A stretch of DNA of 64,000 nt, from positions 1,368,277 to 1,432,276 of the forward strand of contig NZ_LR881183.1 in the NCBI RefSeq assembly GCF_904067545.1, given 5' to 3'. This stretch comes from Thermococcus camini. Its GTDB lineage: Archaea; Methanobacteriota_B; Thermococci; Thermococcales; Thermococcaceae. A program made the position numbers and the translations under genes. Positions 29,469 through 50,959 of the stretch are shown here, piece after piece. Numbering within the stretch: position 1 is the stretch's first letter; every line of letters begins with the position of its first letter. The notes under the pieces are model-generated. The model was not told where the DNA came from and ran no database searches. It was given only the letters and a program-made list of their open reading frames with translations.

Positions 29469-29576
29469 GCCGGGGTAGCTTAGCCTGGTCAGAGCGCTCG
29501 GCTCATAGGGCCGCTCCCCTTCGGGGGAGCCTGAGAAACCGAGAGGTCCGGGGTTCAAAGCCCCGCCCCGGCACCA
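29469..29576 (+). tRNA. tRNA-Met (CAT), elongator, with a 30-nt intron
   Basis: Acceptor GCCGGGG pairs with CCCCGGC at the 3' end, and CCA is encoded (29574-29576). The anticodon arm is CUCGG/CCGAG with loop C-U-CAU-A-A. A 30-base intron at 29508-29537, right after position 37, folds into a GC-rich hairpin around CTCCCCTTCGGGGGAG. That is the canonical archaeal intron site cut by the splicing endonuclease. The G1-C72 pair argues for elongator rather than initiator tRNA. Elongator tRNA-Met introns are known in Pyrococcus. Confidence 0.95.
29508..29537 (+). other. Intron of tRNA-Met
   Basis: Thirty bases between A37 and A38 of the tRNA, self-complementary over GCTCCCC and GGGGAGC. The boundary is ambiguous by one or two bases, because A residues flank the 3' splice point. 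Confidence 0.85.
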
Positions 29577-30052
29577 TTCAAACTTCGCCTTCACGAAGTT
29601 TGATCAAGTTCGTGATTCCCTTCTAATGCACTTCTCTGGGAGGGTTTGCCTCTTTGAGTGTGGTTTTTACTGAGGAATTCCTTTTGAAGTTGCTTTGTTT
29701 GAGTGGGTTTACCTTACCCGCGCTCCGTTGGAGCGCTTTAGGAGTTTAAACCCATGTTTCAGGGGCTCTGAGGGTGAATTCCTGCTTGAAAAGGATAGTC
29801 TGGCAATACAAACTCCCCCCAACTGCACTTTAAGGAAGAATCACAAACTTTGACGAAACTTTACGCAGGTAAAGTTTCTTTGGTGAAACTTTTAGAAAAA
29901 GCTTCAGCGCTGACAGGAGATCACGTGCTATTCTAAAAATATTTCAGATTTACTCCCTAAATACCGTTCCACAACGTTTTACTCTCCAGGGATTAACTGG
30001 GCACTGGGGAGTTGTGACCCTCAGACATTCGTAAAAATTGAAAAACGAGACG
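29577..30052 (+). repeat. tRNA-linked structured non-coding element, copy A
   Basis: There is no credible gene in these 476 bases. They begin two bases after the tRNA-Met CCA with a 9-bp hairpin CAAACTTCG/CGAAGTTTG (29579-29602). Then come a nested hairpin TGGGTTTA/TAAACCCA around GCGCTCC/GGAGCGC (29704-29754) and a 10-bp hairpin GAAACTTTAC/GTAAAGTTTC (29855-29878). Bases 29841-29912 match 50541-50612 at 64 of 72 positions without gaps. GTTTTACTCTCC near 29976 also recurs in the other copy. Probably one transcript with the tRNA; function unknown. Confidence 0.7.
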
Positions 30053-30667
30053 TCACCACCCGTACCCATACATCCTCGCCATCAGGTGCCTCTTGATCCG
30101 CCTGCCGTAGTAGTAGCCTATGGCCATTCCAACGAGGAGTCCGCCCAGGTGGGCGTAGACGTTGACGCCCGGCAGGATGCTGTTTATCAGGAAGAGCACG
30201 AAGGCGTTTATCAGCGCGGCCTGCATGTTGCCTCCGACGACGCCCGTTATGAGTATCAGTGCCCCGACTATGCCGAAGAGGGCTCCACTCGCACCGGCGC
30301 TCACTGAGTTGGCCGGCAGCAGGAGGAGCGTCAGCAGGTTTCCGGCTAAACCAGAGACGAGGTAGACCATGACGAGCCTCTTCGGCCCGAGTATGCCCTC
30401 GAGCTGTCTGCCCATCATCAGGAGGAAGTACATGTTGAAGCCTATGTGGAGTATGCCGACGTGCACGAACATGGCCGTGATTAACTGCCACCACCAGCCG
30501 TAGTTGAGGACTGCGTAGTTCCACTGGCCGAGCCTCGCCAAGACGTCGATGCTTATGCTGAGCGGGTTCCCGCTGAGGATTGCCTCGACTATGTAAACGG
30601 CCACGTTTATCAGGAACAGCGTAAACGTCGCCTTCCCGTAGCGAGCAAAATACCTCTCAAGGCTCAT
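30053..30667 (-). CDS. Rhomboid-family intramembrane serine protease
   Basis: 204 residues with six membrane helices. The catalytic Ser is in GASGALFGIVGA (about residue 127) and the catalytic His in NVYAHLGGLLVG (about 172). HVGILHIGFNMYFLLMMG provides the conserved HxxxHxxxN of helix 2. It cleaves membrane-spanning substrates in the lipid bilayer. The ATG at 30667 overlaps the end of the IMPase gene by 11 bases; the run DUF63, IMPase/FBPase, rhomboid is one operon. Confidence 0.93.
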   Translation of the reverse strand: MSLERYFARYGKATFTLFLINVAVYIVEAILSGNPLSISIDVLARLGQWNYAVLNYGWWWQLITAMFVHVGILHIGFNMYFLLMMGRQLEGILGPKRLVMVYLVSGLAGNLLTLLLLPANSVSAGASGALFGIVGALILITGVVGGNMQAALINAFVLFLINSILPGVNVYAHLGGLLVGMAIGYYYGRRIKRHLMARMYGYGW

Positions 30668-31439
30668 TTTTCAGCTCCTCCAGAATCATGTCGAGCAGGT
30701 AGCGGTCGTTGACGGCTATTACGTTTGTCTTGCTCGTTGCGTCGAGCCTCAGCTCCAGCTCCTTCCCCCTCTCGTCCGTAACTATCGCCCCCGCCTCCCT
30801 CGCTATCAGCACTCCTGCCGCTATATCCGTCGTTCTCACGTAGTTCCTTATGTCCAGGACGCCGTCGAGGGCACCCTTTGCCAGGTAGGTAAGCTCAACG
30901 GCTATCGCACCGAGGACGCGGACGCGTTTGACCCTCTCTATCAGCCCGAGACATCTTCCGCGCGTGTAGAAGCTGAGTGCCTCCTTCCCGCGCTCCGGCT
31001 TCCCGACCTTTACGGGCTTTCCGTCCATGTAGGCGCCTTCCCCCGGCAGGGCCTCGTAAAACGTCTTTGTGGCGAACTCGTATATCGCACCATAGATGGG
31101 CTTCCTTCCTTTAAAGACGGCGAAGCTGAAGGCGAATATTGGTATGCCTGCGGCGAAGTTGTACGAGCCGTCTATGGGGTCAACGATGACAGTGTAGTCG
31201 CTCCCGTTGTCTATGAAGCCTATCTCCTCGCTGACAACGTTGACGCCCAGGGGCTGAAGTCTGCTAAGAACAACGTCCTCGGCCACTTTGTCAACGTACT
31301 TGGTAACGTCTCCGCTGACGTTCTCTCCCATCGTCTCTCCGGCCTTTGAAGTGCCGAAGAGGGGCATCACTTCCTTTTCAACCTCCCTCGCGGTTTCGAG
31401 GGCGACCTCGTTCCACGGGATTTCCGTATTAATTTCCAT
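30657..31439 (-). CDS. Inositol monophosphatase/fructose-1,6-bisphosphatase
   Basis: 260 residues of the Mg2+-dependent IMPase/FBPase family. Metal-binding motifs are VVSEEIGF and VDPIDGSYNFAAGIP (about 80-95) plus RTTDIAAGVLI near 205. Archaeal members hydrolyse both inositol 1-phosphate and fructose 1,6-bisphosphate, and support solute synthesis. A start at 31448 is possible, but ATG 31439 sits behind GGTGG and fits best. It overlaps rhomboid downstream and lies one base from the DUF63 stop. Confidence 0.9.
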   Translation of the reverse strand: MEINTEIPWNEVALETAREVEKEVMPLFGTSKAGETMGENVSGDVTKYVDKVAEDVVLSRLQPLGVNVVSEEIGFIDNGSDYTVIVDPIDGSYNFAAGIPIFAFSFAVFKGRKPIYGAIYEFATKTFYEALPGEGAYMDGKPVKVGKPERGKEALSFYTRGRCLGLIERVKRVRVLGAIAVELTYLAKGALDGVLDIRNYVRTTDIAAGVLIAREAGAIVTDERGKELELRLDATSKTNVIAVNDRYLLDMILEELKNEP

Positions 31440-48540: not shown

Positions 48541-48612
48541 GCCCCCGGGAAACCGCGGGGGATGAGCGCCTCGGCGAGCGATGATTTCCCTTCGCTCCCC
48601 GGGGGCACACTC
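48541..48612 (+). ncRNA. Predicted H/ACA box guide RNA
   Basis: The 5' GCCCCCGGG (48541-48549) pairs perfectly with CCCGGGGGC (48598-48606). ACA follows at once (48607-48609), three bases from the expected 3' end. Between them lie unpaired segments that could form the guide pocket (AAACCGC and CTTCGCT), an upper stem, and two ATGA elements (GATGAGC and CGATGATT) suitable for a kink-turn bound by L7Ae. The length of about 72 nt is typical of single-hairpin archaeal H/ACA RNAs. Target uridine not identified. Confidence 0.6.
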
Positions 48613-50147: not shown

Positions 50148-50235
50148 GCGGGGGTTGCCAAGCCTGGTCAAAGGCGCGGGATTGAGGGTCCCGTCCCGTA
50201 GGGGTTCCGGGGTTCAAATCCCCGCCCCCGCACCA
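50148..50235 (+). tRNA. tRNA-Leu (GAG)
   Basis: Acceptor GCGGGGG pairs with CCCCCGC, discriminator A, CCA encoded at 50233-50235. Anticodon loop TTGAGGG between CGGGA and TCCCG gives GAG. The long variable arm (TCCCGTAGGGGTT region) is typical of class II tRNA. A TATA box ATTTATAAAG lies at about 50111-50120. A structured repeat begins two bases after CCA. Confidence 0.95.
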
Positions 50236-50959
50236 CACAAACTTCGCCTTCGCGACGTTGAAGCGAAGCTTCAACGCACGGGACGACAGTCCCGTTGAGT
50301 TTGATCAAGGTCGGTGATTCCTGTTTGAGTTGTCTTCTCGGGAGTGTTTGCCTTTCAAGCCAAGCTCTTTGGGTTGGAATTCCTTTTAATTGGGTAAGCG
50401 TGTTGAGGTTTACACTCTTCCGCACTCCTTCGGAGCGCTTTTAGAGTTAACCTCTTGTTTTGATGCCTTGGAGAGGGAATTTCCGATTAGGGGGCCGTTT
50501 GAGAGTGCAAACGTTCTCCAAGTTACATTTTTGAAAGGAATCACGAACTTTGACGAAACTTTTCTCCAGAAAAGTTTCTTTGGTGAAGCTTTTGGAAAAA
50601 GCTTCAGCGCTGGCGGAAATTGGGGTGCTTTTTGGAGATTGCAAGTTCTGAAGTGGGTTTCTCATTCACTTGCTCATCAGCGAGTGTTTCACTTTCCAAA
50701 GGCGCCCTTCGGGCGCCGATAAAAATATGAAAACCACCCCCTAAACAGGAACCCAAAATGGTTCTCACTTGAAACATCACCCTCAAGTCTGGAAACCACA
50801 TTTCCAGTTACAACATAGAGAAGAGCTACAAACTCCAGCGAAGCTTTCTAAGACAGAAAAATGATTGTCAGGTAAGTTGTTTCCAGGTTTTACTCTCCCA
50901 AGAACGCACAGGCCAAACATATTTAAACCTTCTGTGCGTAAAATCCATCGGTGACTTTG
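50236..50959 (+). repeat. tRNA-linked structured non-coding element, copy B, and its flank
   Basis: There is no credible gene in 724 bases. Elements: CAAACTTCG from 50238, two extra hairpins CGTTGAAGC/GCTTCAACG (50256-50276) and ACGGGAC/GTCCCGT (50278-50295), AGTTTG closing at 50298-50303, a nested hairpin GAGGTT/AACCTC with ACTCT/AGAGT (50405-50454), and a 10-bp hairpin GAAACTTTTC/GAAAAGTTTC (50555-50578). The part to about 50612 is homologous to copy A after tRNA-Met. Beyond it lie a GGCGCCC-TTC-GGGCGCC hairpin near 50700 and GTTTTACTCTCC near 50887, also found in copy A. Confidence 0.7.

Follow-up and report, generated by a model that had tools for sequence, protein, structure and literature searches.

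A quasi-palindromic repeat family behind stable RNA genes of Thermococcaceae and the origin of its copy at tRNA-Leu(GAG)

How does a long palindromic element come to lie exactly two bases beyond the CCA end of a tRNA gene? The question is raised by a locus in the genome of Thermococcus camini (Thermococcaceae; 2.02 Mb, single contig; here G000), in which an element that we refer to as copy B directly follows tRNA-Leu(GAG). A preliminary description, based on a stretch of 64,000 nucleotides around this locus (the window; coordinates without a prefix refer to it, and all features listed are on its plus strand), had assigned copy B to 50236-50900, had recognized a relative, copy A, at the identical offset from another tRNA gene, and had proposed a defined linkage between the element and tRNA 3' ends.

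Copy B, its neighbor and copy A

The tRNA-Leu(GAG) gene, called by ARAGORN and Rfam and with its CCA encoded, occupies 50148-50235 and is followed by a two-base spacer, CA (50236-50237), which is common to the copy behind tRNA-Leu(CAA). Copy B thus starts, as described, two bases past CCA (CA/CAAACTTCG at 50236/50238). Its left end palindrome, of a type that we call P (CAAACTT...GAGTTTG; 50238-50303), has the arms CAAACT (50238-50243) and AGTTTG (50298-50303), and inside this kept stem lie the two extra hairpins of the preliminary description: CGTTGAAGC/GCTTCAACG at 50256-50276 (arms 50256-50264 and 50268-50276), for which compensated variants are present at other loci, and ACGGGAC/GTCCCGT at 50278-50295 (arms 50278-50284 and 50289-50295). 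The palindrome is followed by a rod-like quasi-palindrome (50297-50561) with a conserved inner inverted repeat (ATCAAGGTCGGTGATTCC/GGAATCACGAACTTTGAC), imperfect arms and a conserved center. The nested stem GAGGTT/AACCTC, claimed for 50405-50454, is indeed found there (50405-50410 and 50449-50454), as is the conserved central hairpin GCACTCC-TTC-GGAGCGC (50422-50438), the stem of which is invariant except at one base across 17 aligned units. The right end palindrome, again P (GAAACTTTTCTCCAGAAAAGTTTC), is at 50555-50578.

The predicted fold of 50236-50600 is one long rod with an MFE of -148.2 compared to -104.9 +/- 5.1 for shuffled sequences (z -8.4). In a palindrome scan of the window in which G-T was allowed, copies A and B ranked at the top with a score of 37 each, while the shuffled maximum was 21. 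Because a scan for plain matches without G-T gave copy B a score of only 14, not separated from shuffled sequence, scoring that allowed G-T or A-C was used.

Homology between copy B and its closest relative stops near 50610. Therefore, 50236-50900 is not one element but holds one full unit and most of a second, different unit. The latter (50600-50884) is a weak palindrome with a P'-type left edge (GCGCTGGCGGAA) and a central GGCGCCCTTCGGGCGCC; its left part matches units of the P' type at other loci and the right half shows orthology to the locus in G017, which suggests a hybrid that arose near the central hairpin. The sequence GTTTTACTCTCC (50887-50898) is shared by copies A and B, as had been noted, and lies outside the unit, in sequence flanking the next gene. 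As a candidate for the 3' boundary of the family it was rejected, because just 4 of 289 loci contain it: two overlapping loci that both represent copy B, the G017 orthologue of copy B and one further locus.

Copy A (29577-29912) starts at the same 2-nt offset from its CCA (29577/29579), has a plain P end without the hairpin insert and folds less strongly than copy B (z -5.1). The tRNA upstream of it (29471-29576) contains an intron, is missed by ARAGORN at default settings and is called Ser(AGA) with introns allowed; judging by sequence, it is probably tRNA-Met(CAT). The rhomboid-like gene after copy A (30060-30670) stands behind tRNA-Leu(GAG) in G013, G011, and G018 (L077, L103, and L171), pointing to a putative rearrangement with both breakpoints behind tRNA genes.

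A repeat family located behind stable RNA genes

Copy B is a member of a family of non-coding, quasi-palindromic repeats of ~300 bp that occur singly or in tandem arrays in the Thermococcaceae. BLAST with 50236-50900 gave matches in 23 of the 41 genomes searched, all of one genus. A 23-letter motif was present in 67 of 94 Thermococcaceae genomes, among which it was found neither in genus g9 nor in the single g12 genome; it had 29 matches in G000 versus none for reversed controls, and many species have up to 20-30 copies per genome. A search for the exact motif in one genome for each of 84,980 species returned 55 stretches, 55/55 from Thermococcaceae. By inspection, the unit contains no open frame of note. 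We found no description of the family in the open-access literature, outside of which most subscription journals lie and an earlier description may exist; the word "repeat" is absent from the T. kodakarensis transcriptome paper.

The family unit is an imperfect palindrome of ~300 bp in which both ends and a central hairpin are conserved. When 190 distinct tRNA flanks, drawn from many species, were scanned for palindromes, the first one mostly spanned about nt 3-20 to nt 285-312, with its center mostly at nt 148-158 after CCA, or at ~193 with the two-hairpin insert. This insert is a recurrent module that is present or absent between orthologous sister loci (e.g., tRNA-Lys(TTT) in G000 versus G013), and its hairpin variants are compensatory (CGTTGAAGC/GCTTCAACG, CGTTGGAGC/GCTCCAACG, and CGTCGAGC/GCTCGACG). 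Three end types were distinguished among 129 recognized elements, i.e., P (CAAACTT or GAAACTT; 99 elements), P' (CAGCCCTT...GCGCTGGCGG; 27), and a rare type IV (3).

Counting P and P' only, the element starts 2-3 nt past CCA in 108 of the 129 recognized cases (84%). The identical offset reported for copies A and B is therefore correct for these two, while for the family it is a range of 2-3 nt rather than a fixed 2 nt. There is strong support for a linkage to tRNA 3' ends, which reaches far beyond two copies: in G000, 24 of 46 tRNA genes have a unit, and 23 of the 29 motif matches are in units located immediately behind tRNA genes, within a zone of ~1.6% of the genome. The 55 public stretches contain 58 motifs, 50 of which are in arrays behind small RNA genes, with 23 at 19-22 nt from the RNA end. 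Units were also detected behind box C/D and H/ACA RNA genes at an almost equal offset.

Three motif clusters of G000 outside tRNA flanks were examined one by one. One lies between the box C/D RNA sR36 (2 nt away) and a second C/D-like RNA (~4 nt away). Another begins 2-3 nt past a conserved, GC-rich non-coding hairpin that is presumably a small RNA, and it stops 3 nt short of the BRE of the gene for ribosomal protein L37ae; this site has no unit in G018, a single one in G003 and at least three in G000. For the third, upstream of the L3 operon, no RNA was identified. The GC-rich hairpin and a TATA-like box upstream of it precede L37ae in most genomes that carry units and also in G018 (G000:782073-783186, L022; L260-L281); the hairpin has no match in Rfam and may be an undescribed small RNA. 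The H/ACA RNA Pab160 (48541-48609) has no unit behind it, and in another Thermococcus (L142) a P unit directly follows Pab160. At tRNA-Arg(CCG) (L050) and tRNA-Thr(GGT) (L088), a different short element, CGAAAGACAAGGGGG...CCCCCTTATCTCTCTGTACTCTCAAACCCCC, lies 3 nt past CCA between the tRNA and the unit.

Comparing tRNA 3' flanks among related genomes, as the preliminary description had advised, revealed presence or absence of units locus by locus. No unit start was detected in 33 tRNA flanks of G018, a small Thermococcus genome, or in 33 tRNA flanks of G045 (genus g9, probably Pyrococcus), where a single unrelated weak palindrome was counted from two tRNAs. Because a reduced Thermococcus and a related genus carry no units, the family is dispensable.

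Origin of copy B and spread of the family

Over 375 nt, copy B and the unit behind tRNA-Leu(CAA) in G000 are 98% identical. The alignment of the two loci has zero mismatches from nt 46 of the tRNA to nt 215, and the two remain homologous up to nt 463, the common segment (50148-50610; G000:502599-503061) being 97% identical over 463 nt including the tRNA. The two loci thus share an unbroken homologous tract from inside the tRNA through the unit; of note, tRNA 3' halves are naturally alike, and identity inside the tRNA alone proves no recombination. At the Leu(GAG) locus, G013 and G011 have GAAACGTTTCTGTCTCG and no unit, and G012 and G017 have other sequence starting with GAAACG, while in G013 a B-type unit sits behind Leu(CAA). 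Because sister genomes have no such unit at Leu(GAG) and G013 has the B-type behind Leu(CAA), copy B and its CA spacer were likely acquired from Leu(CAA) in the G000 lineage. Orthology of the copy B locus to G017 resumes beyond about 50740, as it should if a tract between two anchors was replaced. As far as sequence comparison can tell, these observations point to copy B being a recent duplicate generated by tRNA-anchored recombination rather than a fresh insertion. The shared offset, which the preliminary description had read as a sign of linkage, retains this meaning for the family, while that of copy B itself is explained by descent from tRNA-Leu(CAA). Parallel exchanges were detected between Leu(GAG) and Leu(CAA) in G056 (94%, 451 nt), between Val(GAC) and Val(CAC) in G013 (85%, 392 nt) and between Ser(GGA) and Ser(CGA) in G000 (98%, 122 nt).

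We favor, with reasonable but limited confidence, a joint reading in which ectopic recombination gave rise to copy B and drives spread and turnover of the family, the founder of which was a mobile foldback element. Specifically, gene conversion between the two tRNA-Leu genes would have delivered copy B, with the tRNA 3' half as anchor on one side and the end palindrome or linker repeats on the other; the same type of ectopic recombination between RNA-gene loci would account for spread and turnover, and a mobile, MITE-like foldback element would initially have entered RNA-gene 3' ends. According to the T. nautili paper, homologous recombination in T. kodakarensis is detected only for at least 500 bp (PMC5495485), and the exchange tracts described here are shorter than this limit, which counts against recombination. 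Also, conversion explains spread among RNA genes but neither the first arrival nor the 2-3 nt offset common to the unrelated P, P', and IV ends.

This common offset, which extends over three end types and over tRNA, C/D, H/ACA, and other RNA genes, would be expected if a trans-acting transposase or integrase inserted units at a fixed distance from RNA 3' ends in an attTn7-type or tRNA-targeting manner, most copies being direct insertions. The uniform unit size of ~300 nt with matching ends, the species without any unit, and the presence or absence of units per locus, with 0 to 3 or more at the L37ae site, fit such targeting as well. We nevertheless consider it unlikely, because the spacer bases of copy B and of Val(GAC) match the donor and not the recipient locus and because the plasmid, phage, and viral collections searched contained no unit match, no coding member, and no transposase-bearing relative. 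Moreover, no target-site duplication was found, and none of 290 flanks is a clean tRNA empty site with a duplicated target; at L37ae, the empty site of G018 has diverged too far to reveal one. Alternatively, units might accumulate neutrally where a compact genome tolerates insertion, i.e., between an RNA 3' end and the next stop codon or promoter, with flush borders reflecting purifying selection instead of targeting. Some arrays directly abut a convergent stop codon (Gln-TTG, Ser-CGA, and Leu-TAG) or end ~3 nt before the L37ae BRE, and short spacers are common in element-free G018 (e.g., 5 nt at Leu(GAG)); however, G018 also has spacers of 25-90 nt and more, so that nothing forces the 2-3 nt seen in 84% of cases, and in the motif survey no units were seen to belong to the far more numerous 3' ends of protein genes, making this explanation highly improbable.

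The location at the 3' end of stable RNA genes could also mean that the unit is a host RNA module, co-transcribed with the upstream RNA, in which the end hairpin or the rod serves 3'-end formation, termination, or RNA stability. The strong fold of copy B (z -8.4) and the compensated hairpin variants agree with this. In 17 aligned units, the outer inverted repeat and the central hairpin are nearly invariant while the intermediate arms are variable; the covariation score exceeds that of the controls, with two-sided change in 33 pairs versus 23.9 in shuffled and up to 30 in slid alignments, a modest excess. Furthermore, of 64 first units, 44 have more G-T than A-C on the strand of the tRNA (p 0.004). 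In 99 distinct rods, however, G-T and A-C mismatches both exceed expectation (1.44 and 1.28 times, respectively), both resembling transitions in a decaying DNA palindrome, and the strand bias is therefore largely compositional. For the same reason we rejected the wobble excess as a sign of RNA selection, convincing as it is in copy B alone (18 G-T versus 4 A-C). In pairwise comparison, one-sided changes break pairing in about half of the cases and pairing survives in the others. Templated correction within palindromes during replication could also keep the arms alike. Half of the tRNA genes in G000 and all those read in G018 and G045 manage without a unit; no run of at least four T is present in P ends with CAAACTTCGCC; and Rfam cmscan of the window and ten unit loci detected only tRNA, Pab160, and sR36, none of them inside a unit. 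Selection on RNA structure with pairs kept one by one is only weakly supported, and we regard a host RNA module as distinctly unlikely.

Relation to known systems

The favored reading, with ectopic recombination after arrival of a foldback element, would relate the family to tRNA-centered rearrangement. Thermococcus inversion breakpoints fall in tRNA genes, and the pTN3 integrase recombines Thermococcus tRNA genes, tRNA-Leu included; one sequenced in vitro crossover involved the 3' half of tRNA-Gly genes and conserved sequence just beyond (PMC5495485). Palindromes or intergenic repeats are unmentioned in that paper. Both systems have tRNA genes as recombination sites, but in G000 the repeat prolongs homology beyond the tRNA; the pTN3 integrase is a candidate enzyme that could use such tracts. 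A duplicated tRNA fragment (att) at the border, the hallmark of tyrosine-integrase insertion into a tRNA gene, is absent from the copies read, the far ends of which are P palindromes or unit-specific hairpins. By supplying shared tracts that could let tRNA genes recombine, the family may help to explain tRNA genes as rearrangement spots in Thermococcus genomes, and drivers of rearrangement thus become testable by comparing element-bearing with element-free species. We hold it unlikely that the repeats are a selfish or domesticated class that recognizes stable RNA 3' ends (tRNA, C/D, and H/ACA) and, through homology past tRNA genes, is a main driver of tRNA-centered genome scrambling in Thermococcus. 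With units 2-3 nt past stable RNA genes across most of the genus and a close relative without them, nature provides an experiment on how RNA-gene ends are addressed; the exchange of tRNA 3' flanks between loci in Thermococcus genomes is also a warning.

MITEs and foldback elements of archaea and bacteria are likewise short, non-coding, multi-copy, intergenic, and lineage-restricted with inverted termini. In the family, terminal inverted repeats are present as end palindromes and the inner inverted repeat, with 94-96% of cells in the outer helices of 17 units being paired, and the many dispersed copies are non-coding. Unlike for MITEs, neither target duplication nor a coding parent was found, and because of this no MITE membership is assigned; also unlike MITEs, the unit is palindromic throughout and has a fixed place after RNA genes, and copy B appears to have spread with tRNA-anchored homology. 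REP/BIME and similar bacterial intergenic repeats are palindromic, lie at 3' ends of transcription units, and occur in tandem with units of ~20-40 bp. The family shares palindromicity, location, and tandem arrangement with them, whereas its units are ~300 bp, tied to stable RNA genes, and found only in Thermococcaceae. The family comes closest to a MITE or REP-type repeat in how it works but is filed as a member of neither class.
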